Shown piece after piece: positions 6,101 to 64,000 of a stretch of DNA of 64,000 nucleotides. Under the pieces are notes generated by a model. That model had not been told where the DNA came from. It saw only the letters and a program-made list of their open reading frames with translations, and ran no database searches. How positions within the stretch are numbered: position 1 is the first letter of the stretch; each line of letters starts with the position of its first letter. The position numbers were made by a program, and so were the translations under genes. The stretch comes from Thelephora terrestris (Eukaryota; Basidiomycota; Agaricomycetes; Thelephorales; Thelephoraceae). The stretch covers positions 248,001-312,000 of the forward strand of contig WIUZ02000026.1 of assembly GCA_015956445.1 (NCBI GenBank). Reading direction: 5' to 3'.

Positions 6101-7018
6101 TGAAGAATTGATGCGGGGAACCAACGAACCCTCAGGAACTGGCGGAAAAGGTCCAGGAACGAGGTATGGGGGCATGTGCAAAACCGAATGCGGACGAAAT
6201 GGTAACCAGAAAGATCAACGACAAAGATGCGTTTGGTGTCTGTATTCACAGGGCAGGCGCCGCCAGAATGAGAGAGGTTGATGACCAGCCCGAGGCTTTC
6301 GAGGGATACGGTCTCGAAGAAAGCACCATTCCACCGCTTAGGCTGACATCAGCTCGAGTCACTGGCACGGGTCCCTCACATACCTGTATTTTGTGGAGCG
6401 GGAGGTCCCGGTGGAATAAAACCGTGCACGCTGAGCAGCGCAACGTCCCCTCCAAACAGTCGTAACATCTGAATGTGGCTGGGTGGCGCGAGCAGTCTGG
6501 GCATGGTTGGGAACAATTTGACGCGTCACCCAAACCTTCCAGACGTAACAATTCGTCGAGAAATATCGATCGATGCTGAACCCACTGCTCCATTTTTGTC
6601 TGAAATCGCGAATGAGTTTGAGGTGGCGGGAGAAAAATAACGCACTTACACTGTCATTTTCCTGAACAGTCCTTATGCGCCTCCGCTTTTTGTCTTTTTT
6701 CTTGACGGTGTCGGAAGGGGACTCAGCATCTGCCAGCACCCCGGTCTCCTCAAGGGCATCGACCTCGGCGACATTGACCTCGGTTCTTCCGAGGTTCTTA
6801 CTCGTCGAGGATTCTTCGGATGGGGGTAGCTGGGAATAATGCTTGAGGGTTCTCCTACTCGCCTTGATACGTCCCGTTTTCTCAGAAGATGAGATGTCCC
6901 AGACGCGGACATTCTCCACGGTCTTGTTGTTTGGGTCGAAGTTATATGACTCGAATGTTGCATTACCTTTCCTTTTCTTGCGAACGGCTTTGGAGCCGCT
7001 TCCCTGGCGTTTAAGCAT
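3129..7018 (-). CDS. KDZ-type transposase with CxC2-like cysteine cluster, ten exons, apparently intact
   Basis: Transposase of the Kyakuja-Dileera-Zisupton superfamily, common in basidiomycetes. Exons (minus strand): 7018-6650, 6599-6384, 6342-5968, 5916-5723, 5667-5511, 5460-5312, 5261-4867, 4812-4636, 4573-4441, 4383-3129. All nine introns (41-62 nt) have GT-AG ends and compatible phases, giving 3420 nt, 1139 aa. N-terminal basic region; exon 2 carries the cysteine cluster (CPDC, CYDC, CSAC, H-rich tail). The DDE core shows AIDANFRL (Asp about 394), SYDIACRW (Asp about 512) and GRTHGE (Glu about 575), with family motifs CRHGLIRKNG, KGERFVNMDYIF and IPKFHLPAH. The C-terminus is a helical region then an acidic tail. 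No in-frame stop was found, so it could be active. TIRs and target duplication were not identified. Confidence 0.93.
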
Positions 7019-9630
7019 ACTCTGAAGGACGAGGGACGTCGGGGAGTGCCAGCAGAGTCAACACGCGCGATTGGCACACGTGTATGGATGGGCGGATTAA
7101 TAAAAATTGCTCTGCCGGGGATTCGGCAACCCACGAGTGGTCGGACCATTCAGGGAACATACTTGCGTGGGTTGATGGTGGACTTCAAGCAAATCTTTGA
7201 TTGTGATCGGACGCATCTCCTCCTACCTGCCCCTCGCACTCAGCAGTATTCTGCCGTTCCATCCCTCTCTAGTGCCTTTTCCCTGCTGCACGTAGGTATT
7301 CTGCAGGTATTACATCAATTGCGCGGGCTCTCTAACAGCCCGGCCGCCCGAATCGTCTGTGACCAATTGTGTATCGACAGTACTTCTGAGGTATGTTACT
7401 GTCGGTGGTCTCTCACGATCTCACCCCTTACTCTAATCGTCCCTCATTGCCCCTCCACTCTACTACTATCAACTACTGCGCAAACCTGCCTGACTGGATC
7501 TAACCGGACACGTGCACCGACCCATAGTGGTTCCAGGTCCGTCTGGTTTTTAAGGTGCGTGTATTGTTTAATCGTGACGCGCGAAGGTGCTGACAAGTAC
7601 GCTCTCGGTATGACCACGAATCTAGCCCAGTTTTATGCGACCCTGATCAACATTACATTCGCTCCGATACTTCAAGCCTCGCACCTCGCTCCATGGCGCT
7701 CCCCAGTATCCCTCTCTTTCTATTCATCTCACAGTCCGGTCCACCTCGTCCCCGGTACGAACGCTGTATTTATTCTCAGTACCTAGGGTGTGGCGCCCTT
7801 TTCTTCGGCGTTTCTGAAGTAATTTGACATTTCGTGGTCGAACGAATCGCCGTGATCTTGCGGTATGTATGTTTAGCTTGTGTTCATGACTCCTAGCACA
7901 CTGTCCGCTCTGTTCACAACTCCTAGCACTGTCCACTGTGTCCTCACATTTTTTGTAGTCGCTATATCATTCCAAACCCCAGTCTCAACTCCTCCCCCAC
8001 CCGCACGGTTTCTGCCTTTATTGTGGGGTTTGAGGGATTTTCGGCTCTGAGCGACGTCTGACGTCTAGTTTGTGGTTTGAAAACCTCTTGTTATCAGTTT
8101 TCATACAGGACTAGCCATATCCCCTTCGTGTATCGCTTCCTCTCGAATGTACAACTTTCCGGCTTTCTTACTTTTACGGTTACCTGAACGCGAGCAACGC
8201 TGAACAAGCCACCAGTGCTCTGAATCAGTCTTGCGAGGGATCTTTCAATCGATTATCGAACGTACAATCAAAGTCTGCAACTCTTCGAAACCGCCCTGGA
8301 TCTATTTCAACACCATAAGGCGTGCGACTCGATAATCCAAGGATGTGACAAGTCTGAAGGAAAGCCCCCGCACCGAATGCTGAACGATAGAATACACAAT
8401 TGATAAGTTACATATCTGACCCCGAGTGATGCACCCTTTCGCTGCATGGTAGATTCTGACTCGCGGTCCATCCTCTATCTCACAACCTAGCTTTTGGTCG
8501 CTGACGTTGTGAATGAAGCTGGCTCTTGACGGCACCTCCTTAATCGAGACCCTCGGGATACGGCGAGAGAAGGTATGGGGTTTGTGTGTATGTTGTGATA
8601 CAATGCATCCCAACGTATTGGACTTGTTCTCTGATTACTCTGTATAGTACACTCGACGAGACTATTTTACTTTGCTCGCAGAGTAGGATACTGTACTGGA
8701 TAAATCCACCCACGGTTCCATCAGCGTGAATGTGTTTCCGCCAAACCCTTCCGATTTGTGTGAGGAAACGGGGCAGACTAGAAGAGCCCTGGTTAAGGAA
8801 GGGGTCGTTCGAGTACTGTACATACTATATAGTACACATATGAGTTACAGGAGCCACCAACTCAAATATCCATCTTGTTAGATATTCGTTCTGCGCGGTG
8901 TGAGTTGGGAGGGTGACGACCTGGTGCACCGCAATCGAATATTGTGCTCGGCTGACGGTTTCCATAGACCAGGACTCATATCATAGGAATAACTCCATGA
9001 AAGTCATATCTCAATCTGCAAGTGCCTCTCGGGAGGTCCAAGGGGCACCTGCAGCAACGGATGTCCGCAGATGTCTTCCAATTGATATCGCATATCCAGG
9101 ACTTAATCGATTGATCACCTTTGATAACCTAAACGGATATCTTCCGGATTTCAAAATCTGTTCGCAATGTACGTTCGCCATGAAGGTATGATCCACACAT
9201 TTGTAATAGCATGTTTTCTGGAAACTTGAAAAGGCAGGATCCGATCTTTCGATTGGTTTTAGGGCTAAGAAACTTATGTGATTTGTTTCTACCGAGGGGA
9301 ATCTAATGGTTCTATGCAAGTGCACGTTTCCTCACTAACTAGTTATGTGTAAGAGTGGAGATACCCCTCAGGTAGACTGGGATGCGGGCTTTTCCCTCCT
9401 GGGTTTGCGATGAATGCCGCTTTTAACACGCCGATCGACCTTAGATGTGCATGATGGGGGAGCAGAGGGAAAATCGTGTATAGGGCGCTATGTAAGGGAG
9501 CACGGGAGATCAGAGCATACAAGAAGGCGCAGCAGGTAGTATACGGAGACGGGCGCAGAACTGTGATAAGCTACGGCGGACGACAAACAGATTTTCAGCA
9601 GACATAAGTTGAACGCTACGGAAGGGAACT
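7019..9630. other. No gene recognised between the KDZ transposase and the next gene
   Basis: The first few hundred bases are the 5' flank of the KDZ gene. A 246-codon open frame on the plus strand (7046-7786) overlaps this flank but shows no domain or splice logic. Around 8.0-9.6 kb the sequence is of mixed composition with only short ORFs (8302-8613 minus, 8913-9191 plus, 9011-9325 minus) that overlap each other and resemble nothing I know. I see no repeats of note here. Confidence 0.45.
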
Positions 9631-33639: not shown

Positions 33640-36092
33640 GGGTAGAAAAAACACACCACACCTCAGAACCCATCGTGTTTGCAACTAGGTCCATCAGTGG
33701 GATGCAACCATGGCCTGACTACACCCAAGGACCTGTGGCATTTGCCTCTAGGCCCAGGAGCATAAGCCAGTAGGCAAACAAAGAAACAGGCACATCACAC
33801 TCAAGTACCTGTGGTATATGCCACCAGGTCCATGAGCATAACACAAAAGAGAAAGAGAGGAATAAACACACCACACCTCAGAACCTGTTGCGTTTGCAAC
33901 TAGGTCCATCAGTGAGATGCAACCATGGCCTGACTACACCCAAGGGCCTGTGGCGTTTGCCTCTAGGCCCAGGGGCATAAGCCAGTAGGCAAACAAAAAA
34001 ACAGACACATCACACTCAGGTACCTGTGGTATGTGCCACCAGGTCCATGAGCATAACAGAGAAGAGAAAGAGAGGAATAAACACACCACACCTCAGAACC
34101 TGTTGCGTTTGCAACTAGGTCCATCAGTGAGATGCAACCATGGCCTGACTACACCCAAGGGCCTGTGGCGTTTGCCTCTAGGCCCAGGGGCATAAGCCAG
34201 TAGGCAAACAAAGAAACAGACACATCACACTCAGGTACCTGTGGTATGTGCCACCAGGTCCATGAGCATAACAGAGAAGAGAAAGAGAGGAATAAACACA
34301 CCACACCTCAGAACCTGTTGCGTCTGCAACTAGGTCCATCAGTGGGATGCAACCATGGCCTGACTACACCCAAGGACCTGTGGCGTTTGCCTCTAGGCCC
34401 AGGGGCATAAGCCAGTAGGCAAACAAAGAAACAGACACATCACACTCAGGTACCTGTGGTATGTGCCACCAGGTCCATGAGCATAACAGAGAAGAGAAAG
34501 AGAGGAATAAACACACCACACCTCAGAACCTGTTGCGTCTGCAACTAGGTCCATCAGTGGGATGCAACCATGGCCTGACTACACCCAAGGACCTGTGGCG
34601 TTTGCCTCTAGGCCCAGGGGCATAAGCCAGTAGGCAAACAAAAAAACAGACACATCACACTCAGGTACCTGTGGTATGTGCCACCAGGTCCATGAGCATA
34701 ACAGAGAAGAGAAAGAGAGGAATAAACACACCACACCTCAGAACCTGTTGCGTTTGCAACTAGGTCCATCAGTGAGATGCAACCATGGCCTGACTACACC
34801 CAAGGGCCTGTGGCGTTTGCCTCTAGGCCCAGGGGCATAAGCCAGTAGGCAAACAAAAAAACAGACACATCACACTCAGGTACCTGTGGTATGTGCCACC
34901 AGGTCCATGAGCATAACAGAGAAGAGAAAACAGAGAAGTAAATGCATCACACCCAGGAACCTATCGCGTCTGCAACTAGGTCCCCAAGCCTTGGGTGAGA
35001 CACTATCTTCCAGCACATTAATGTGCAAAGCTCCAGCTTCCTGGGGGTATAGACGTGCTGGGCTTTACACAAGGTATGGCAGGGAAGGGTAGAAAAAACA
35101 CACCACACCTCAGAACCCATCGCGTTTGCAACTAGGTCCATCAGTGGGATGCAACCATGGCCTGACTACACCCAAGGACCTGTGGCGTTTGCCTCTAGGC
35201 CCAGGGGCATAAGCCAGTAGGCAAACGAAAAAACAGACACATCACACTCAGGTACCTGTGGTATGTGCCACCAGGTCCATGAGCATAACAGAGAAGAGAA
35301 AACAGAGAAGTAAATGCATCACACTTCAGAACCTGTTGCGTCTGCAACTAGGTCCATCAGTGAGATGCAACCATGGCCTGACTACACCCAAGGACCTGTG
35401 GCGTTTGCCTCTAGGCCCAGGGGCATAAGCCAGTAGGCAAACAAAGAAACAGACACATCACACTCAGGTACCTGTGGTATGTGCCACCAGGTCCATGAGC
35501 ATAACAGAGAAGAGAAAACAGAGAAGTAAATGCATCACACTTCAGAACCTGTTGCGTCTGCAACTAGGTCCATCAGTGAGATGCAACCATGGCCTGACTA
35601 CACCCAAGGACCTGTGGCGTTTGCCTCTAGGCCCAGGGGCATAAGCCAGTAGGCAAACAAAGAAACAGACACATCACACTCAGGTACCTGTGGTATGTGC
35701 CACCAGGTCCATGAGCATAACAGAGAAGAGAAAGAGAGGAATAAACACACCACACCTCAGAACCTGTTGCGTCTGCAACTAGGTCCATCAGTGGGATGCA
35801 ACCATGGCCTGACTACACCCAAGGACCTGTGGCGTTTGCCTCTAGGCCCAGGGGCATAAGCCAGTAGGCAAACAAAAAAACAGACACATCACACTCAGGT
35901 ACCTGTGGTATGTGCCACCAGGTCCATGAGCATAACAGAGAAGAGAAAACAGAGAAGTAAATGCATCACACCTCAGAACCTGTTGCGTCTGCAACTAGGT
36001 CCATCAGTGGGATGCAACCATGGCCTGACTACACCCAAGGACCTGTGGCGTTTGCCTCTAGGCCCAGGGGCATAAGCCAGTAGGCAAAAAAA
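33640..36092 (+). repeat. 215 bp minisatellite, about 11 units
   Basis: The marker CCTCAGAACCTGTTGCG falls at 33876, 34091, 34306, 34521 and 34736, exactly 215 bp apart, and continues with small variants to about 36090. One interruption at 34980-35095 repeats the sequence of 33535-33640, so the array has internal higher-order structure. The unit contains AACTAGGTCCATCAGTG, CACCCAAGGACCTGTGG and GCCACCAGGTCCATGAGCA, all of which also occur in the foldback arms at 27.0-27.9 kb. Confidence 0.92.
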
Positions 36093-39948: not shown

Positions 39949-40235
39949 CACTGGGTCCAGGATAGAATAGGTTTCTGGGGATTATTCTAAATAATATTCA
40001 GAATATAATCAGAATAATAAACATGTCTTATTTTAAACATATTCTAGCCATATCCTAGGATTATTTTATTCAAATCTGATGCCCAGAGCCAACTCTGCTG
40101 AGAGTTCATTTGCATTTGCATATTCCTTGAATGTGGGCAGAATCTGTTTTGAAAATAATACATTTACTATTTTAATTATATTCAGAATATTGTTTAGAAT
40201 AATCCCCCAAAACCTATTCTACCCTGGACCCAGTG
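39949..40235. mobile_element. 287 bp MITE with CACTG termini
   Basis: The left end CACTGGGTCCAGGATAGAAT and the right end (minus strand) CACTGGGTCCAGGGTAGAAT are inverted repeats, extending with mismatches to about 70 bp (TTATTCTAAAtAATATTC). AAG occurs on both sides, compatible with a 3 bp target duplication. CACTG termini with a 3 bp duplication are typical of the CACTA/CMC superfamily, to which Plavaka belongs. No coding capacity. The A/T-rich core contrasts with the G/T-rich surroundings. Confidence 0.8.
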
Positions 40236-41640
40236 AAGTGTGAGTAAGTGTAAAGCGATAGACGTGAGTGAGTGGTTAAAGCTAAGTAGTAGGTGTGGGT
40301 AGACGAGTGTGAACCGTAAAGGGTGAATGTTTAGGTTGGTGTGAGGCGTGTGAGTGAGTAAGTGGGTTGTAGTAGAATTTGGATGTTAAGTGTGAGTGAG
40401 TAAGGGTGGAGTAGTAAGGGTAGTGGAAGTAGGTGTCAAGGGTGAGCAAGTGTGAGATGGTAGACATGAGAGGGTTGTTGTAGTGTGAGCTGTGCAGAAC
40501 AATGTGGATGTCTAGGTCGGTGGGTTAAAGAGCGGCTAGTGCGGATGGGTAGGCTGAGTGTCAAGTGAGGGGGAATAATGTGGTTGTGGTGTAGGTGGGT
40601 AGGGGGTGTGCAAAGGAGGTTGTGGGGGTCTACAGAAGAGCGAAAGTGTAAGCACAAGCAGGTGTGTGTTGTGGAGGTTAGGTTAGGTTGTTCAGGAATT
40701 GGAGTAGAGTTGTGCTGCCATGTGTGTGTGTGTGTGTGTGGAGAAAGCTTACAAAGCTTGGGAGGTAGTTTTGATCATATCATGACATCTTGACATAAGC
40801 CAGGTGAGGAGTGTGCTGTAGAGTTTGTAGGAGACCGGTATGGCTGTGAGAAGGTGTAGAAGGGCAAGGTGTTTGGAGAAAGACAAGTGGTATGGAGTAG
40901 AGGGTAGGAGCAGGTGGGTTGTACAGTGAGTGTGGTGTGGCTTAGGAGTAGCTGGTCAGCAATAACAGATAGTGTAAAGTTGTGGACTGTGTAGAGTCAC
41001 AGTAGCTGTGTGTGTGAGACTGAAAAAAATGGGTGTAAATGCTCAAAAGGGTGTAGGGGGTAGGTAGGTTGTGTCCAGCAGGTATGGGCAGTAGCTTGTA
41101 CAATGGCAGGTGTGGATAGGAGTGTAAGTGTAAACAAGAGTAAAGTGTGAAAAAACTGTGGTTGCGTAGAAAAAAAAAGGCATGGGGGAGTGAGGTTGTG
41201 GTGGGGGTAGGTGAGTGTGAGTGAGTAATCGTGAGGAAGTGAGGGTAGGTGGTAGGTGTAGCTTAGTAAGCGAGAAGTGGCAAGGGGTAAGGTGGTGAAT
41301 GTGGGTAGTGAGCGTTAGTGGAGTAACAGTGAAGTTGTAAGTGTGAGGTAGTAAGTTCAAGGCGTAGGTGTGAGGTAGAGTACTTGTGGTGTTAATTGTG
41401 GGGTGGCAAGTGTAGAGTGGTAAGTTTGAGCAAGTGAGGGTAAGGTGGTAGACGTGCGGAGGTAGTGTGAGTGAACAGGGGTGGAGGGGCAATCACAAGG
41501 TAGGAGATGTGAGGTGGTAAGGGCAAGTGAGGAAGTTTGAGGAGGTGAGGGCGAGGTGGCAGGTGAGGGGTGGTAGGAGTGGAGTGGTAAGGGTGGATAG
41601 TTGAGTAATCAAGGTTGAGGTGGGATAGTAACTGTGGCTG
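40236..41640 (+). repeat. G/T-rich low-complexity region (GTGAGTGTAAG-like), with a (TG)10 tract
   Basis: Irregular repeats of GTGAG, GTAAG, GTGGT and similar words fill the plus strand; the simple repeat (TG)10 lies at 40721-40740. The region also extends leftwards around the MITE to about 39800. Minus-strand ORFs rich in His, Leu, Pro, Thr and Ser (for example 41043-41492) simply reflect CA/CT-rich DNA. Confidence 0.75.
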
Positions 41641-45328: not shown

Positions 45329-48300
45329 ATGATCAGTTCTCTACCGAAGGATACCAACGAGTGCACAGGAAACGGATGGCTCACGTATGGCCATGCCTTA
45401 TTCGATCAAGCCTTCGAGTAAGTTCCATATCTCTGAATTCAACGCGAGTCACAGGCACTGACCGAACTCAGGCCCTCGCGATTGCTCCTCCCTCGCTCTT
45501 CTCGCCACACTCATCCCCTCCCCCCCCGCTCCTCTCCCCCAGGGCTATATCCTTCTCGTTATCCTGCCACTCGACAAACCTGCCCCCACGCACGATCTTA
45601 TCTACGCCCCTCGTTTAGATAAGAAGATGTTTGAAAGGTTCGCTTTCTCCCCACTAGAGGAGATGAGATTGTTCACATTCGCGTTTATAGCCCTGAGGAA
45701 CGCGTAGAAGATTTCGAGACCCATCAAGGCCTCCTCCGGGATGGGATCCAAGTCAAAATGCGTGGTGTATCACCAACGATCTACCGAGCGGAGGACAAAG
45801 CCCTCCATTGTCCCTACGCGGGGTGCAAGGTCAAAATGTCGAACTCGTGTAACTTCCAGGTTTGTGCCATGGTATTACTTTATCACCCCTAATCTGAAGA
45901 CGGATATACCAGGGACATGTGAAGAAATGCAGATACGCCGTGTCCGGTGTAGGCGTCAAAACCGCCTCAGCATACCCGACGCCAACACCGGAGATCCAAT
46001 CCCCCTACTTTCCTGACGAAGACATTACCATGGAAGAGGCCGACGAGATGTACAACGACGACCCGACACTATTCGACATGCCGATGGAGGAAGATTTTTT
46101 CGACGACGCGGATGAAACATTGGTCGAGATCCCGGGCGCCCCCGATGAAGATGACGACGCTCAAGGTCAAGATAACCTCCTAAACATCGACACCCATGAA
46201 GACAACGACGAGGACAACGACGAATTTACGGACCACAGCACGGACGAAGAACGATCTGGTCCCCTACATAAAGATGCGACAGCAGCCAGGTGGTCAGAAG
46301 ACACCATTCAGACTGAAGCCATGTCCCGGCTCGGGATCTGCGTCAACACAGCTGCAAGGGTTCTGATATGTATTGCTTGCGCTTCTGCCATCAGGCCTCT
46401 CGAATTACCCGGACACCTCATCACCTCTCACCCTCCCATGTCGACCAGCACTGCATTCTCCCAAGAGCTCGCAAACACGTACGACCTCCGCATAGACCTC
46501 GAATCACGACCTGGATCCATCATCACCGCAATCTATGGCCTGGACTTAGTAGATGGGTATCTCGCTTGCGACACGTGCGGACACGCCTGCAAATCCCGTG
46601 ACTCGATGAGAAGGCACATGAGAGCGATTTCTGGTTGCAAAACCTTCCGAGAACGCCTTGTACAAACCTTTCGTCCCAAATCCAAGCGACTTTATTTCGG
46701 CGTCAACCTCGATCCCGAGCCCAGAGAAGAATTGGCTGACTCGGCTTCCCTCGATCCCCTCGTCTACCTCAAAAAAAAGTACGCGCCCATACCCTTCAGC
46801 GACATCCCGATCAAGTCTCTGAAGACTCCAAGGGACGCTCACCACTTCCTCGCCCTCGAAAAATGGGACGTATACGTGGAGGGAAGGACTGGGGCAGAGA
46901 TAACACATGCCGTTAGGGAACGAGAGCCTGAACTTCGAAGCGAAGTCCGGATCTGCGTGGATCGGTTTGCGGTTGACGTCACCCAGAAACTGAGCACAGC
47001 TGATCATCAGACGAAAGCTGCTATGGGCGACTATGCTGGGTAAGTAGACCGTCGACTGCTATGGTTTCAAACATCTCGGCTGAATATCATATTAGAATTG
47101 GCCTCACCTCAAGCAAGTTCAAAGACTTGCAGAATGAAGAGACGAGGAAGGCGTATGGGAAGGTAGCGACCGACCTCGTCGTCTTCTGCCTAGGCGTCAT
47201 CACCGGCGAGATCAGCCAATTCCGGACAAGCTTCACTCAAGAAATCGCTGACGCCGGTACCAAGTTCTTGGCCACGCTGCAAACAACCTCTACCTCCGAT
47301 CAGGATGGGGCCCTTCAAACATTCCTCTTCTTGCTCTTCAATCAGAAAAGACGCGGCGAGGCCGACAAATACACCTTCCTTGCCTTCTCCTTTCTCGTCC
47401 TGTACTCGTTCAACGAAAGCGGAACTCTCCGGCCGTGCAACGTCTTCACACAATTCTTTTCCAAGACGATTTTCTTCGCTCGAGGTGCAATATTCAATTG
47501 CATCACCTCCGACGCCACGACGGAAAACAAGGGATTTTTTGAGTGAGCTTAATTCCGTAGATCGAGACGCGTCATCTCACCTTGTACACTACAGAGTCTA
47601 CGAAACCTACAAACACCTGCTTCTGATCCGATCCGATTATCCGCTGTCCTCGATCTACACCACGAAGAACCTGGCGAAGAAGGTCTCACGTGACCAAGAG
47701 CGGGAGAACAAAGTGAATTTTGTTGGACCTGGGAAAGAGACGGCTATAATGGGGAAGATTGCGGTCAACCTCGGGAGTTTCGGCGAGTGGTACCGAAAGC
47801 TGTTGGAGGAGGTAAAGAGGATGCAGTCGGACCTATTCAGTGGAATCGGCTTTGAGGATGAGGAGTGGCTGTTGGTCACGGTACCAGAGGTTCTCGTAGA
47901 TGAAGTCAACACAAGCAACCCGGGGTTTTCCTTTGGAGACATGGAGAGGAACGACCTGTCAAAGTACGAAAATGCTGCTCTGAGGACCCTCTTCGAGCAC
48001 CCTCGCCTCAAGGGTCGGTTCGGCACCATACTCCCGGGAGGAAGATTCATTCTCAACGCCGTCGGCTGTCACGAGTTTCTTCAAAGGTCCTCCCTCACCC
48101 GAACGAAAATGGCAACCCTTCTTCATATCTCAGGTGGTGGGCCTGCGCGTGGGACAGAGTTCACAGCAAGCTACCTCCGGAATCATCCCCAGGGTGACAT
48201 CCGAAACGTGAGGGTCATTGACAACGAACTATGTCTAGTCGGATCGTACAACAAGACATCGGGCATTGTACGTTTATTCCTCAAAGCGGTGAGAACCACG

Positions 48301-51300
48301 TTGATCGTGTTTGTTTTTTAGACCGAGAGGCGAAAGAAGATATACCGGTTCGTTCCGAAGAGTCTTTACCAACCCTGCATCATCGACTGGTTCATCATCC
48401 GGCCGGTGGAGATCATCCTTGCAGGAGCTCTCGGGCTAGATTCCGCGGTGGAGGAACTACGGTACCGGCTTTTTCCCGGGGTTTACCATCCGTTCACTTC
48501 AGAGGTCTTCTCTAAATGTCTGAAGAGGGACTCGCATCTTCACCTTGGTCAAGGGATTGGACTCTCGGACTTCCGAGACCTTCAATGCAACATTGTCGAT
48601 CAGCACCGGGACCCGGAGGCGATCAAGCTCAAGAGTTCGGACAACGTATCTGACCTTCAACAAGGTCATTCCCCCTCCATGGCGGACGAATATTACCTCC
48701 TAAGGCCCGATCGTCCCTGTGACAGGGGCGCGATCGCAGCATACCATCGTGCCTCAAGTTGGTGGCAGCACATCACTGGTATTCAGATTTCAGTTTTAAT
48801 GAGAAATCACACTGACGTTTCTTCTCAGGAATCCAACCGATAGAATCCCCTTCCAAGTCCAATCAAACAAACGCCCACCACCAGATAGGCCACGCGCCGT
48901 TCACCTCGACGCCGGGGCTCGAATCGGAAATAAACCGGTTGGTGAGTCAGGTGGCGAACCTCAGTATCAGCCTCCGTTCAACCATCAACGATTCGATCGG
49001 GAGCGCGCTTGCCTTACAAGAGAGGAGGGGGTTGAACACAGAACCTTCGTCTCAACTTCAACGCGAACTTTATGTTCCCCACCCGTCACTCACAAGGCTG
49101 CTTCGGAATTTCCTAGGCAACGGCTCAGCCACGTTCAAGACCCCGGAGCAAGCGGAGGCGATTGAATTTGTCCTCGCGCACGAACGTCATCTCCTGTTGG
49201 TTGGACCAACTGCGATGGGGAAAACACTTGCTTACATGCTCCCCGCTGCCAACCGCGATCACGGGATCACCTGCGTCCTTCTCCCTCTTTCCGCTCTCCA
49301 CACCGACTTTGACCGCAGGTGTACGGACCTGAAGATTGAAAGCTCACGATGGACGCCACAGAACGACCGACCGAGGACGAAGATCATTTACGTATCACCT
49401 GAACATGCACAGACTAAGCGGTTCAACGACCACGTCTTTGAATTGCATCGACTCGGACTCCTCAAACAATTCGTAATCGACGAGGTTCATCTTGTGAAAA
49501 GTCACTCCGACTTCCGTTTTTGCTTCTCGGCGTTAAAACCCCTTCTCAGCTGTGGTGAGTCTGAAAACCAACGTTGTACGGTGAAGTCTAAGTTCAGTTA
49601 CAGGCGTCCCCTTCTTGTTGATGACAGCAACTTGTCCGCTTCCCCTTCGATCCGAGATCTTGGGCGCTTTAGGAATCAGCGATTGCCACATCATCCACGC
49701 CCCCACAGACAGGCCCGAAATCTCTTACCGGGTTGACATTTCTCCAACTCTCGATGAAGCGAAGGAGAAGTTGGTGGTGGCTGTCGAGGACCGGCTTGCC
49801 AAGACAAAGTCGACTTCGTTCCGAGGGCTGGTCTATTGCCGAAGTAAGAAGGATGTTGACGAGATTGCTGAGAGGTTGGGGTGCGACGCGTTTCACGCAG
49901 GACGACCGGTCGAGGAGAGAAAAGCCAGCTTCCAGAACTGGGTCAATGGGAAGAAGAAGTTTATCATCTGCTCGTCGTTGCTGGGCTGCGGTATCGATAT
50001 CGAAGGTGTGGCCGTCGTCTTCCATTTTGGAACTCCCTGGTCAATCTTGGACTTTGCTCAGGAGAGTGGCAGAGCTGGGCGTGGAGGCAAGGCCTCAATC
50101 AGTGTTGTCTACGCTGCAATGGATGAACGGGAGCCTGATGACGGGGAGGAAAATGCTCTCTATGGCAAGAAGACAATGAGGGAGTGGACACTTCAGAACT
50201 CGATCTGCCGTCGGGTTACTCTCAGCTCCTTCTTGGACGACCGGCGCACCACGTGCACTCTCCTCAAGGGTGCGGTTCCATGCGACGTGTGCTCTGCAAA
50301 GTCGTTGGAGCCACACCCAGGACTCCTGGTTCCATTTTCAACCCTCACAATCCCCTCTGAGAACGCTCCCGAGGCGATGCACCTTCCGACCGTCCCACAG
50401 TCTTCTCTAGAATATGTGGTTAGCGAGAACTCACTGCCGACGACCAAGTAAGTTATTTTTTTGATCTCTCGAGGCTTGCGCTGATGCGAACCTATCCAGA
50501 TCACTCACGTCGCATCCTGAACTCGTCACACCCGCCAATCAAGGACCAGCCCCTTTGAGCCAGCTAAAGCGGAAGCGTGATGAAGAACCAAGGTGAATTT
50601 ATTCCTTAAACGTGCCCTGCACGATGCTGACAACGAATTCTCTGGGAGTGGGGCAAACAAACGACAGCGGGTTAGCCAGGTCACAGGCCCGATCCAACCT
50701 TCCGAGACAGTGACGGTACCGCGGCGGACGGAGAACCCTCTCCTCGAGGACATCGAACGCAAGGCTTTGGCGGCCATCCACGAGCGAAGGAAGCACATAC
50801 CAGCATCTTCGACTGTCTCGGTCTCAAAGAACATCTGGGCGAACGAGCTGGTGCTTGAGATTGCGGCACAGATGGTCCACGAGGTGAGAGCTGATGTCAC
50901 GGAAAACTACCGTGGGTGCTCGCCTTGCTATATGATAGCAGGTGAGGCGGGCACTACCCATCGGTCTGGAAAGGGATGTCCCAAGATGCCGCTTACCCGA
51001 TCAACTGTGGGCTGGACGGATTTCAAGGATAACCTGAAGTTTGCAGAAGGGATCATGTGTTGGAATTGCCTCTTGCCGACGGTAATTTTGTTGCCACATT
51101 TTGAACGCCCCGTTGACTAGAGATCAAACAGAATGAAAAAACGAACATGGCCGGTGCCGTCTATCATAACACCGATGAGTGTACTCTACGGCACTACATC
51201 CGCCCTGTCCTCTTCGCGTTTTACCAGTACGGCACGGATGATCTCAAGAAGTTTGTAGAAGAGAACCTGGGTGTATGCCCATGGGGGCAGGGTATCGATT

Positions 51301-51401
51301 CGTACATCGAGTGGCTGACAGCTCAACCAGGGAACGATATCCCAAACCATCTCAGGTTGTATTGGTGGACTCTGATGTTCTGGAGGATGTCGCGAGGGTG
51401 A
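45329..51401 (+). CDS. OrsD-like C2H2 zinc-finger / RecQ-type SF2 helicase fusion (telomere-linked-helicase-like); 5' exons uncertain
   Basis: Resolved exons: 45658-45859, 45913-47039, 47096-47542, 47595-48267, 48322-48778, 48829-49554, 49604-50447, 50500-50592, 50649-51081, 51132-51401. All phases agree and introns are 49-56 nt. From 45913 to the stop there are 1689 codons without interruption. Upstream, an ATG at 45329 opens a plausible first exon (GNGWLTYGHALFDQAF), but its links to 45658 are unclear. The N-terminal part holds C2H2-like fingers: CPYAGCKVKMSNSCNFQ-GHVKKC; LICIACASAIRP ... H; LACDTCGHACKSRDSMRRH, the OrsD-type pattern. The helicase part has GPTAMGKT (Walker A), VIDEVH (motif II), LMTATCP (III), FIICSSLLGCGID (V) and QESGRAGRGG (VI), the RecQ family set. 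Likely a nuclear 3'-5' DNA helicase. It is followed by telomere-like repeats. Confidence 0.85.
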
Positions 51402-51640
51402 ACTGATTAGTTTGCGTCCGCTATCACGCCGTCGTAGTGCCCTTTGTACAGAGTTAGGTTACTTTCGAACAGAGCTCTTGCACTCTGTCTGTTACAGCTG
51501 AAGTCCGGTTGAGGGGATCTGGTATGACGGGCGGTCTGTCGAACCACTTTGGCGGATACACACGTCACGCTCTGGAGAAGATACAGACGCTGGAACATTT
51601 TAGGAATTAACTGGGTCCATTCAATACCATACATGCACCT

Positions 51641-52030
51641 CGGACAGTTAGGTTGGGTGAACTAACCCATCGGCCAGTTAGGTTAGGTTAGCTAACACTT
51701 CGGACAGTTAGGTTAGGTTAGCTAACACTTCGGACAGTTAGGTTAGGTTAGCTAACACTTCGGACAGTTAGGTTAGGTTAGCTAACACCTCGGACAGTTA
51801 GGTTAGGTGAACCAACCCATCGGACAGTTAGGTTAGGTTAGCTAACACCTCGGACAGTTAGGTTAGGTGAACTAACCCATTGGACGGTTAGGTTAGGTTA
51901 GCTAACACCTCGGACAGTTAGGTTAGGTGAACTAACCCATCGGACAGTTAGGTTAGGTTAGCTAACCCATCGGACAGTTAGGTTAGGTAAACCAACCCAT
52001 CGGACAGTTAGGTTAGGTAACCTAACCCCT
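51641..52030 (+). repeat. Thirteen 30 bp repeats containing TTAGG blocks
   Basis: CGGACAGTTAGG recurs exactly every 30 bp at 51641, 51671, and so on to 52001 (the copy at 51881 reads TGGACGG). Each unit has GTTAGGTTAGGTTAGCTAAC or the variant GTTAGGTGAACTAACCC, so a short inverted repeat (GTTAGCTAAC) is part of the unit. The blocks resemble TTAGGG telomere repeats and start 240 bp after the helicase stop codon. Confidence 0.95.
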
Positions 52031-52096
52031 CGGACAGTTAAGGGTTAGGAAGTTAGGGGTTAGGAGGTTAGGGTTATGAGGTTAGGGGTTAGGACA
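52031..52096 (+). repeat. Degenerate TTAGGG-like interstitial telomeric sequence
   Basis: Six to seven irregular blocks (AGGGTTAGG, TTAGGGGTTAGG, TTAGGGTT) follow the 30 bp array directly. TTAGGG is the usual telomere repeat of basidiomycetes; orientation places the chromosome end, if this was once one, to the right. The tract is too degenerate and internal to be a live telomere. Confidence 0.8.
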
Positions 52097-52325: not shown

Positions 52326-53060
52326 GAACGACACACACCATGTGGAACGTAGCACTGAAGAGCAGATGGCAATCTCTACGAAGTGTGTAGCTCCCATTAG
52401 GGAATGAATAGCACAGACCAAGGAGGACATAGCACTGAAGCGTAGATGCCAATCATTAAAAAGTGTGTAGCTCTTATCAGGAGACGAATAGCACATGCCA
52501 CAGGGAACGTAGCACTGAGGACCACATAGCAATCACCAATGAGCATGTAGTTCTTACCGGGAGATGAATAGCACACACCAAGGGGAATGTAGCACTGAAG
52601 AGTAGATGCCAATCATTACGAAGTGTGTAGCTCCCATAAGGAAACGAATAGCACGCACCAAGGAGGACATAGCACTGAAGTGTAGATGCCAATCATTAAA
52701 AAGTGTGTAGCTCTTATCAGGAGATGAATAGCACACGCCACAGGGAACGTAGCACTGAGGACCACATAGCAATCACCAATGAGCATGTAGCTCTTACCGG
52801 GAGATGAATAGCACCCACCAAGGGGAATGTAGCACTGAAGAGTAGATGGCAATCATTACGAAGTGTGTAGCTCTCACTAGAAAATGAATAGCACACGGCA
52901 CGAAACATGTAGCACTGAAGCATAGATGCTAATCATTAAAAGGTGTGTAGCTCTCACTAGGAGATTAATAGCACATGCCACAGGGAACGCAGTGCCAAAG
53001 AGTAGATGGCAACTATAATGAAGTGTGCAGCTCCCACTAGGAGAAGAACAGCACACCCCA
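52326..53060 (+). repeat. 80 bp satellite, block 1 (about 9 units, 240 bp higher order)
   Basis: GAATAGCAC-type markers occur at 52406, 52486, 52566 and 52646, exactly 80 bp apart. Units alternate in sets of three: 52417-52640 resembles 52657-52880 more closely than neighbouring units resemble each other. Consensus words: GTAGCACTGAAG, CAATCATTA, GTGTGTAGCTC. The same satellite makes up block 2 at 62.2-64.0 kb. The 71 overlapping minus-strand ORFs of about 70 codons are by-products. Confidence 0.93.
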
Positions 53061-53274
53061 AGGGAAAGACACCAGCATACCATCAACGGTGCCACATGAG
53101 CACCCGCACCCCATTCACTCTGCACAATCTTACTGATTTTTCTTCGAGCTCAGCAGATGAATCAAATTCCTACAAGATGCCTAGGATAAGTAAAAGTCAA
53201 TCAAGAATGATAATGTACAGAATTTACAGTCCCAACATATGATCAACGGAAAGTGGTCGTGCAAAGTAGTCACA

Positions 53275-56200
53275 TCAATATCCAAACCCAGATAGGTAAA
53301 TGGATTGCTCGGAAAATAACATCGCAGATGCTGCGTCTTGTAAGCAAGCAGCCACAGCCTCAACAAGCCCCTGCTGAAAGTCTACCTGCTCATGGTATCC
53401 AAAGGTGGGAGCTGAGCTACTACCACCAACACCGTCTTGACTAGCTCCAGAGGTATCCGGTGCTGGAACAAAGATGGCGCTCTCCTCATCCAGCATTGGC
53501 CTATCTTCCATCATCTGGTAACACTGCCCATCGTCGTAGTCGTCGTCGTCACTGGAGGCGTTGCGGATCTCGCCGTCATTGCCGGATAAGAGGGCGTCAG
53601 CTTTAGCCCTGTTATCGTTGTCGTTGGAGGCTATACCAGCTAGAGCATCGTCGTCATCATCGGAGCTGTTGAAGATTTCACCATCGTCATCTGGAGAGAG
53701 GGTGTCAGCCTTAGCCCCGTCGTCGTCGTCGTTTGAGCCAATACCAGCTACAGCGTCGTGGTCGTCGTCGGAGGTGTCGAAAATTTCACCGTCGTTGTCT
53801 GAAGAGGGGGCGTCAGCTTCGGCTCTGGTGTCCTCGTTGTTGGAGCCAACACCAGCTGTAGCATCCTCGTCTTTGCCGGAGACGTTGAAGATTCCACTGT
53901 CGTCGTTGGAAGGAGGGGTGCCAGCTTCGGCTCTGGTGTCCTCGTCGTTGGAGCCAACACCAGCTATAGCATCCTCGTCTTTGCCGGAGATGTTGAAGAT
54001 TTCACCGTCGTCGTTGGAAGGAGGGGTGCCAGCTTCAGCTGTGTTGTCCTCGTCGTTGGAGGCGATACCAGCTACAGTGTCATGGTTGTCGGAGGCGTCG
54101 TTAGGCATTGAGGAGGAGGAGCAACCTGGGGCTTCGACCATCAGACTTTGAAGGCTGTGATCAACGTAGCTTGTCCCAATACGTTCGCCGACGATAGAGT
54201 ACACCGCACCCCAATACCCACCCCTCCCAGTTTCTTCCAACATCCTCTGAGTCTGCACCGCCGCTTCTTTGGGCTTCCCACGAACGATAGAGCCTTGAGT
54301 GGTAGGGACATCTTCAGCCTCATCGTAGGTGGCCTCGGGGACAAATCTGCGAGTCGCGAGTCGCTTCGGCCTGGCAGTCGTCTTGACTTCCTCCACGGTC
54401 AAAGTAACCTCCCTGCGTTTTGAGGCTTTTGGCCCGCCCCCACCCTTTGGTCCTTTTCCGGCGAACAAGTCAGGTGGCAAGGATCGAATTTCCCCGGACA
54501 AAAGTTTCGCCACAATCTCCTCGTCGATCTTTATGCCACGGCAGGAGATGTAAGGTTCTCTTTTCTTCCTACAGCAACTGCTGCAGTTGCACTCGTTGCA
54601 ACAGGAAGGACAAACGAAATCATCCTTGAATTGCTCAAATAGGATATTGTGGTATCTAGTATGGGCATGGATAATCCAGTCAAAATCCACCCACATTAAC
54701 ACAGAGCAGGAGTACCTCTTAGCTATGCACAAAACACAGTAGTTCCTTGTACAATCGCGACAAGACATCTTGGGACGCGTGTTCGAGCTTCGACATTGGT
54801 GACAGGAGGTGGGCTCGGAAAGTTTGACGTTGCGGTAGGGTCCCTCCGCATTTGCGCTGCCCGTCCGTTCCTGCAAGGAGGTTGTCTCGGTGCTTGTTAC
54901 ACGAGGCACCGGAGCATCCGAGTCGCTGCCATGTCCATCGACCATGTTTGCCACCTCACTGGTTGATGCAATGGACAACGTAAGAGCACTGCCACCTACG
55001 GTAGGCCCTGAAGCACTGAGCTCGGTCAGGGGGGAATCCGGCACTGGGTCGGAAGGCAAACAATCACCGGCAGGAATGCTCGAGGTTGTCTTCGCAGAGG
55101 TGCTCCTTCGACTCTTGGACTCCAACGAGTGAGGGGAGGCTCCCACCGATTGCAACCTCGCATGGCGCGCAGGAATCCGAATGGTCAAGGGCCTTGGGTG
55201 GAAATCCGGGGATGATGCAGAACTCGGAGCGGGGGTAGGGGAACACGGCTCCAAGAACACAGGGGTCATGCGGAGGAGAGCGGTATCGATGGAGATATCT
55301 GGGTTTGGTCCCCAAGGCTGTTGGTTGATGATCTCGTCCATAGTCATAATCGAACGTAGATCGGTGACAGGAACCGTATCCTCCAAGCTGAGGTCACCAT
55401 AGTTAGGCGCGCTTAGCCAATCCCACGGCGCTTCGGCAGATCGAAAAGCATCCGATGGTGTGACCTCATCGCCTGGACCCTCGGAAGCGATAGCCGACGA
55501 TTCAAAGAATTCGTTCAACACGGCGTCTCCGGGCTCTTCGTCAGACTCAACCTTACAAATTCTTCCGATGATATGCCCGGTAACGAACCGTGCTGATAAG
55601 TGCTCAGAAATTTCGTCGTTGGGATAATTAGGGTAAGCGGGTATCTCGTATGTTTCTGCCGTAGGATCGTTATCAAGGTCGTACGCAAGCACAGGCAGGT
55701 CACTGGCGTCTACATCCGAATCCGAAGCCTCGAAAGGTTGAGAGTGGGGTGTGGGACTCGAGGTGTCCCAAACAGCAAGGTAGGCATTCTCACGGACAGG
55801 AGTGGTCATGTGTTGATCAGAATGCGGGTTAGGGGGGATTGATTCGGAGGCTGTCTCATGTGTCCCATCAGGGAACGCTTCTCCTACTGCACGCGCCTCT
55901 GATGTTGACGCAGCTGTGGATGATGACTGGTCGATCATGATCTCGATTGGCCAAATTTTCCCTGGCAAAGACAGCGGCAGAGACTCACGGAAGATACGGG
56001 GGACGTCTCGGAGCGTTTGGTTGGAATTTGGGGCAAACGGGATCCCTTGGTCGGGGAGGGCTCGCCAGCAACGATCTCAACCTCCATGGAACTGTCGGTC
56101 AAGGGGGAGTCTTCGTCGATGTCAATGATACTCTGCGCACGCTCGGGGTGAGGAGTAGATGACCGAGAACCGAGCTATGGGCAGTTGACGTTAAACAGTT

Positions 56201-62211: not shown

Positions 62212-64000
62212 AACAAAGCAAGTAGAACATAGCATTAAGGACTAGATGGCAACAATCAAGGAGTATGTAGATCTTATTGGGAATCGAACAGCACACACCA
62301 AGGAGAACGTAGCACCAAGGATTACATGGTGGTGATTAGAAAGTGAGCAGCCCTTACTGGGAACTTCATAGCATACGCCAAGGGGAAAGTAGCACCGGAG
62401 ACTACACGGCGATCACTAAGGGGCACGTAGCTCCAATTGGGAAGTGAATAGCACATGCAAAGGAGGACGTAGCACTGAGGATCACATGGTGATCATTCCA
62501 AAGTGTGTAGCTCTTATGGGGAAGTGAATAGCATACGCAAAGGAGGATGTAGCATCGAATATTACATGGCAACCATTAGACAGCATGTAGCTCTTATTGG
62601 GAATTTAATAGCACACAAAAAGGGGAACGTAGCACTGGGGATGACATCGTGATCAATAAAAAGTGTGTGGCTCGCATTGAGAACTGCATAGCACACGCCA
62701 AGGGGGGCACAGCACTGAGAATTACATAGCGATGATTAGAAAGTGAGTAGCTCTCATTGGAAATCCCATAGCACACACCAAGGGCAACGTAGCACCAAAT
62801 ATTACATGGTGACCATCAAGGAGTATGTAGCCCCTACTGGAAATTGTATAGCACATGCCAAGGGGGACGCAGCATTAAGGATTACATGACGATAATCAAG
62901 GGGTATGTAGCTCCCATTGGGAAGTGAATAGCACACGCAGAGGAGGACGTAGCACCGAGGATTACATGGTGATTATTTAAAGTGTGTAGCTCTTACAGGG
63001 AAGTGAACAGCATACGCCGAGGGGAAAACAGCACCGTATATTACACAGCAATCATTAGAAGGAGCGTAGCTCTTACTGTGAATCGAATAGCACACACCAA
63101 GGAGAACGTAGCACCGAATATTACACGGCGACCATCAAGGAGTATGTAGCCCCTACTGGAAATTGTATAGCACACGCCAAGGGGGATGCAGCATTAAGGA
63201 TTACATGACGATAATCAAGGGGTATGTAGCTCCCATTGGGAAGTGAATAGCACACGCAAAGGATGATGTAGCACTGAGGATCACATGGTGATCATTCCAA
63301 AGTGTGTAGCTCTTATGGGGAAGTGAATAGCGTACGCAAAGGAGGACGTAGCATCGAATATTACATGGCAACCATTAGACAGCATGTAGCTCTTATTGGG
63401 AATTTAATAGCACACACCAAGGGAGACGTAGCACTGGAGACTACATCGTGATCAATAAAAAGTGTGTGGCTCCCATTGGGAATTGCATAGCACATGCCAA
63501 GGGGAACGTAGCACTGAGGATTACACAGGGATCATTACAAAGAGTATAGCTCTTATTGGGAATTTGATAGCACATCCCATGGGCAGCGTAGCACCGGAGA
63601 CTACATGACATTCATCAAGGAGTATGTAGCTCCCATCAAAAAGCAAATAGCGCATGCCAAGGAGGATCCAGCACCGAAGATTACATGGCGGCGACCAAGG
63701 AGTATGTAGCTCCTACTGTGAGTTGTATAGCACACGCAAAGGTGGACCGTGGCACTCAGGATTACATAGCGTTCATTAAAAACAGTATAGCTCTTGTTGG
63801 GAATTGCATAGCACACGCCAAGGGCAATGTAGCACCGAATATGACAAGGCAATCGTTAGAAAGTGTGTAGCTCCCATCGAGAAGTGAATAGCGCACGCCA
63901 AAGGGGAGGTAGCACTGAGGACTAAACGGCAATCATTGAGGAGTATGTAGCACTCACTGCAAAGTCAATAGCACACGCCAAGAGAAGGTAGCACTGAAGA
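62203..64000 (+). repeat. 80 bp satellite, block 2 (about 22 units, continues past the window)
   Basis: Units are 80 bp (for example GAAGTGAATAGCA at 62441 and 62521) with the words GTAGCACTGAGGATTACATG, GTGTGTAGCTC and TTGGGAA. Two higher-order periods are visible: 62421-62720 resembles 63221-63520 (offset about 800 bp, ten units), and 62771-62990 resembles 63090-63310 (offset about 319 bp, four units). It is the same family as block 1 but more diverged. The array is cut by the end of the window. Confidence 0.93.

Follow-up and report, generated by a model that had tools for sequence, protein, structure and literature searches.

A tyrosine-recombinase domain between OrsD fingers and a RecQ-type helicase in a multicopy gene family of Thelephora terrestris biased to contig ends

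We analysed a gene on the forward strand of a 64,000-nucleotide stretch of the Thelephora terrestris genome (assembly GCA_015956445.1, contig WIUZ02000026.1; hereafter ‘the window’), which corresponds to C19:248001-312000 in a genome of 40.6 Mb and 60 contigs (C19 is 337,500 bp long). The protein encoded by this gene combines OrsD zinc fingers, a tyrosine recombinase (YR) domain and a RecQ-type helicase, in this order, and the catalytic set of the YR domain is intact. This architecture is our main result. A preliminary description, made from the sequence alone, had recognised the fingers and the helicase and missed the YR domain between them. Residues are numbered according to an 1818-amino acid spliced model whose exon 1 is uncertain, and feature coordinates are collected in Table 1.

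The catalytic Arg, Lys, Arg, His and Tyr of the YR domain are identical, and stand in the same order, in all 16 diverged sequences aligned; this set took in 14 of the 53 distinct database proteins listed, and one further protein, P0008, was looked at besides. Judging from this alignment, conservation of the catalytic residues spans diverged paralogues and fungi. When Foldseek candidates for the predicted model of this region were re-scored with VIA-align, the top 37 of 50 rows were YRs or topoisomerases (Z up to 11.1), consistent with a YR catalytic fold, at 8–13% identity to YR structures in the structural alignments. A viral fold library gave nothing at E <= 0.001 for this region; several of the weaker matches listed were named integrase or Tyr recombinase. 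We predict that the YR part is likely to function as an active recombinase. It differs from the known tyrosine recombinases (Xer, Cre, Tn1549 Int, lambda Int, Flp) in its fusion to OrsD fingers and to a RecQ-type helicase.

Pfam matched OrsD, DEAD and Helicase_C in the spliced protein (OrsD with E 1.3e-7 and 32.5 bits versus a cut-off of 26.6); the first C2H2-like finger had no Pfam match above the cut-off. The four helicase motifs noted earlier indeed share one frame (GPTAMGKT at residue 1156, DEVH at 1248, TATCP at 1280 and QESGRAGRGG at 1425). Among the 60 rows listed in a comparison of the window helicase with PDB sequences, rows 1–37 were RecQ5, BLM, RecQ, RecQ1, WRN and RecQ4, some of them named only as ATP-dependent DNA helicase, and row 38 was DDX23; a profile built from ten relatives gave the same RecQ-first picture. 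Since RecQ-type chains precede DDX23 in this ranking, the helicase belongs to the RecQ class. TIGR00614 (recQ_fam) matched the relatives under its cut-off. A RecQ-like Cys set (ICRR...C...CDVC) comes after Helicase_C, and the corresponding Cys are invariant among seven aligned relatives; Pfam reported no RecQ zinc model there.

OrsD stands ahead of the helicase also in the relatives P0001, P0033 and P0054, which, together with Pfam on the spliced protein, bears out the earlier claim that OrsD and RecQ are fused in one protein. The fusion itself had been called less familiar, and this does not hold: OrsD is described with RecQ-like telomeric elements of Ustilago and reported in UTASb (PMC10532341), and Metarhizium, too, has an OrsD/recQ gene (PMC11457142). 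It is the recombinase domain, and not the OrsD/RecQ fusion, that is unfamiliar. In the literature searched, which excluded most subscription papers, we found among the papers listed neither a YR-RecQ fusion nor ‘telomere-linked helicase’ beside ‘tyrosine recombinase’.

A protein search of the genome gave 34 rows, which were grouped as 14 family loci. Six loci with weak, ordinary-helicase matches (three on C1 and one each on C34, C58 and C3) were excluded; C16 and C12:1804k were retained though they match the helicase part only. Ten of the 14 loci are no more than 50 kb away from a contig end, versus 7.4% expected; since the loci are non-independent, a binomial test of this bias overstates its significance. 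The corresponding numbers were 0/30 for other DEAD places, 4/29 for the listed copies of a 2.9-kb repeat element (likewise 4/29 at a 30-kb limit) and 5/29 for those of a 236-bp repeat, both counted on contigs whose length is known. The DEAD control comprised 30 of 37 rows, after removal of a family member (C8:723411), a place on C9 (contig size not known) and five neighbouring rows assigned to the same gene; its nearest place, on C12, lies 52 kb from the end, just beyond the limit.

We read 24 contig ends, namely all 22 ends of the 11 copy-bearing contigs and both ends of C1, the only contig read among those free of copies. Two of the 24 terminate in (TTAGG)n (C4:1382308-1382500 and C11:794871-795803), and each has a family copy about 10–27 kb inside; these two are the only ends read that look like chromosome ends. 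A TTAGG pentamer telomere would be unusual for a basidiomycete, and exact (TTAGG)22 also occurs within C18, C23, C25, C45 and C59, and on C26, 1.8 kb short of the contig end. Upstream of the window gene, at a distance of about 3.7 kb, lies a block of subtelomere-like material, as indicated by its identity to the subterminal sequence of C4 and C11 (Table 1). Of the ten copies near ends, three are oriented towards the end and seven face inwards. The four internal copies weigh against a chromosome-end link, and some contig ends are assembly breaks rather than chromosome ends: C11 starts in sequence that flanks a family copy on its 3′ side, so family copies themselves end contigs. The link of the family to chromosome ends has real but qualified support. 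For the telomere-linked helicase locus proposed in the preliminary description, the end bias, the copies near both (TTAGG)n ends and the subterminal block speak in favour, and the internal copies, assembly-break ends and mixed orientation against, as do the repeats considered next.

The telomere-like array seen downstream of the gene is real, and a TTAGGGG-like tract follows it, but the array is not a telomere. The array begins 238 bp past the stop codon, TTAGG occurs 31 times within 457 bp of the region, and many units hold the palindrome GGTTAGCTAACC; its length and sequence differ between C19 and the copy on C14. It is a minisatellite with a 30-bp period and internal TTAGG, 37.4 kb from the C19 end. 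Reading the array as a telomere was also tested with (TTAGGG)4 and rejected: every one of the 45 perfect matches in the genome lies inside a contig, mostly as inverted pairs 0.9–9 kb apart. Outer sequence is shared by 26 of the 30 loci fetched, as a repeat element with long inverted ends would predict. Paired inverted TTAGGG/TTAGG tracts (e.g. C1:3383656-3385342, C2:468281-469918 and C13:503639-505226) have a layout like tiny chromosomes; they are probably DNA elements with telomere-like repeats in long inverted ends.

Our data show the architecture, the conservation of the catalytic residues, a predicted fold, the number of copies and their positional bias. We think it reasonably probable that the gene encodes a three-part OrsD/YR/RecQ enzyme from a multicopy, subtelomere-enriched family resembling the telomere-linked helicases (TLHs), which spreads or rearranges the DNA that carries the gene, mainly near chromosome ends. 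Genes like this one may therefore move or rearrange DNA, beyond unwinding alone. The N-terminal C2H2/OrsD fingers would locate the target DNA; the YR part, presumably working in pairs or tetramers, would cut and rejoin strands via Tyr1003 as a 3′-phosphotyrosine; and the helicase would open the substrate or move the resulting junction. Its role would most likely be selfish, and a selfish subtelomeric mover is our leading guess.

Several observations weigh against this reading. The listed helicase P0008 lacks the catalytic set, and the residue following the second Arg is Asp in the window protein in place of the His of tyrosine recombinases, which 11 of the 15 other aligned sequences have. VIA-align re-scores Foldseek candidates only, and Foldseek alone was weak, its best PDB match being an integrase with E 0.34 and 0.69; no model in Pfam, NCBIfam or PHROGs names the YR region. 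Assembly breaks exaggerate the bias towards contig ends. As to movement, no fixed element ends were found in a five-copy family on C4, C8, C10, C11 and C12, and local alignment of the window-gene flanks revealed no inverted or direct repeat beyond shuffles (scores 16 and 15, respectively, versus shuffle means of ~14 and maxima of 21). The C14 and C19 copies are ruled out as independent insertions: they match at 99.0% identity across 14.2 kb, far past the gene, so the C14 copy is an allele or a segmental duplicate.

The gene could instead be an ordinary telomere-linked RecQ helicase, a subtelomeric gene tolerated by the host that plays a part in telomere maintenance or survival without telomerase, with the YR fold as a relic DNA-binding scaffold. 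The bias of copies to contig ends and their presence near both (TTAGG)n ends would fit, but a mere scaffold has no need of five catalytic residues identical in 16 diverged sequences, and we regard this account as rather unlikely. A complete catalytic set would also fit a transposase from a discrete DNA transposon of the YR type, similar to Cryptons (elements with short direct repeats at their bounds) or Starships. The helicase would then help replication, and the position near chromosome ends would reflect only that copies survive there. Internal copies exist, and the members of the five-copy family are 99–100% identical to the C10 copy; however, their breakpoints differ on both the 3′ and the 5′ side, leaving ragged boundaries, and no end repeats were found at the window gene. 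Moreover, the C10 and C12 copies are colinear over ~17 kb (98–100%), save for a 2.93-kb insertion in C10, which makes independent insertion doubtful. The five-copy family looks more like subtelomeric duplication than insertion of a fixed-end element, and we consider a discrete transposon unlikely. The contig-end bias, finally, might be an assembly artefact, if a long repeated family ends contigs anywhere and has no real telomere link. The start of C11 in a copy's 3′ flank and the scarcity of (TTAGG)n among the ends read agree with this, and C22 seems to continue beyond the C8 end, as suggested by coordinates and equal scores. Yet the two repeat controls are much less biased at 50 kb, and both (TTAGG)n ends bear a copy, with C1 as the only copy-free contig read; a pure artefact is in our view improbable.

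RecQ-like genes at Ustilago telomeres have reportedly been in print since 1998, and we know of no settled function for such genes at fungal telomeres. The TLHs (UTASa/UTASb of Ustilago, TLH of Magnaporthe and Schizosaccharomyces pombe) share with the present family a RecQ-type helicase and multiple copies, and probably also positions near chromosome ends. The YR between OrsD and helicase may set the present family apart, and some of its copies are internal. Crypton transposons and Starship captains are likewise eukaryotic YR enzymes of mobile DNA, from which the gene described here differs in that no element ends were found for it. DUF3435 is the profile name of Starship captains, and AcademH transposons have a DDD/E transposase; Pfam reported six families in the protein up to E 5, and these include neither DUF3435, nor a Crypton-type domain, nor a DDE family of the KolobokH/AcademH type. 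As far as the accessible text of each source goes, ‘helicase’ has no occurrence in a Crypton paper (PMC3212892), and ‘tyrosine recombinase’ none in a paper on Fusarium, where TLHs adjoin telomeric retrotransposons (PMC12857005). KolobokH and AcademH transposons of fungi also carry a helicase, which in KolobokH is a RecQ (PMC9587614, PMC10799480); the KolobokH transposase is DDD/E (PMC9587614).

It is conceivable, though doubtful, that fungal TLHs as a class are zinc-finger–YR–RecQ fusions that move or amplify DNA of the subtelomeres; their cutting sites might be palindromic telomere-like arrays, of which the GGTTAGCTAACC units beside the window gene are an example. ‘Helicase’ would then name them after their recognisable half alone. 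If many carry a live YR, a single testable cause would account for the spread of these genes, for their place at chromosome ends and for unstable fungal subtelomeres, and biochemistry would gain access to a eukaryotic lineage of YRs that bring their own RecQ helicase and DNA-binding fingers.

The uninterrupted nine-exon frame described earlier turned out to comprise 12 exons, with the frame open through exons 2–12. The exon 1/2 junction is unsound: the modelled exon 2 start at 45542 uses an acceptor cut as CA/G, and with the canonical CAG acceptor, from which exon 2 would start at 45543, the frame with exon 1 is lost, so the N-terminal ~30 residues are uncertain. The remaining ten introns are all GT-AG and keep the frame. 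The C14 copy is open too, with 5 coding-base differences (2 synonymous and 3 non-synonymous codons).

Table 1. Features of the OrsD/YR/RecQ gene and its surroundings, in window coordinates
Feature	Position	Strand	Basis
Block 98–99% identical to subterminal sequence beside (TTAGG)n ends of C4 and C11	40236..41647	+	
Exon 1, proposed (ATG of the preliminary description)	45329..45417	+	uncertain, out of frame with exon 2 at canonical acceptor
Gene body, exons 2–12	45543..51401	+	GT-AG introns, open frame; C14 copy open too
Exons 2–7	45543-45637, 45658-45859, 45913-47039, 47096-47542, 47595-48267, 48322-48778	+	
Exons 8–12	48829-49554, 49604-50447, 50500-50592, 50649-51081, 51132-51401	+	
First C2H2-like finger, CPYAGC...HVKKC, residues 113-135, intron-split	45809..45930	+	pattern match
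OrsD zinc-finger domain, residues 274-367	46345..46626	+	Pfam PF12013
Tyrosine-recombinase domain, residues ~655-1030	47596..48778	+	invariant R-K-R-H-Y, predicted models, fold matches
YR catalytic codons	R839 48148-48150, K874 48253-48255, R963 48574-48576, H994 48667-48669, Y1003 48694-48696	+	
Intron inside YR domain	48268-48321	+	
DEAD / RecA-like domain 1, residues 1135-1284	49140..49638	+	Pfam PF00270, E 8.5e-14
Intron inside DEAD domain	49555-49603	+	
Helicase_C / RecA-like domain 2, residues 1340-1434	49804..50088	+	Pfam PF00271, E 2.4e-17
Stop codon TGA	51399-51401	+	
30-bp minisatellite, 13.6 copies, 88% matches, unit with TTAGGTTAGG	51640..52049	+	tandem-repeat analysis
Degenerate 15-bp TTAGGGG-like tract	52037..52094	+	

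The 2.93-kb repeat element that splits the C10 family copy (positions 6160-9092 of the C10 locus) has at least 27 near-full-length copies of 91–97% identity. The 236-bp repeat (window 40000-40236; ~30 genome copies) matches its own reverse strand at ~73% and is thus palindromic and MITE-like. Tandem arrays of 80/240 bp, of one family, occupy window 52332-53063 and 62230-63994, and C14 begins within an array of this type; 215-bp tandem arrays (96% matches) lie at 33645-36092. On the reverse strand, an open reading frame at 21480-22421 matches DDE_3 endonuclease (E 2.2e-8) and is likely a transposase remnant, and a 933-codon frame at 53278-56076 contains a 108-bp repeat and matches zf-4CXXC_R1 below threshold (E 4.7e-4).

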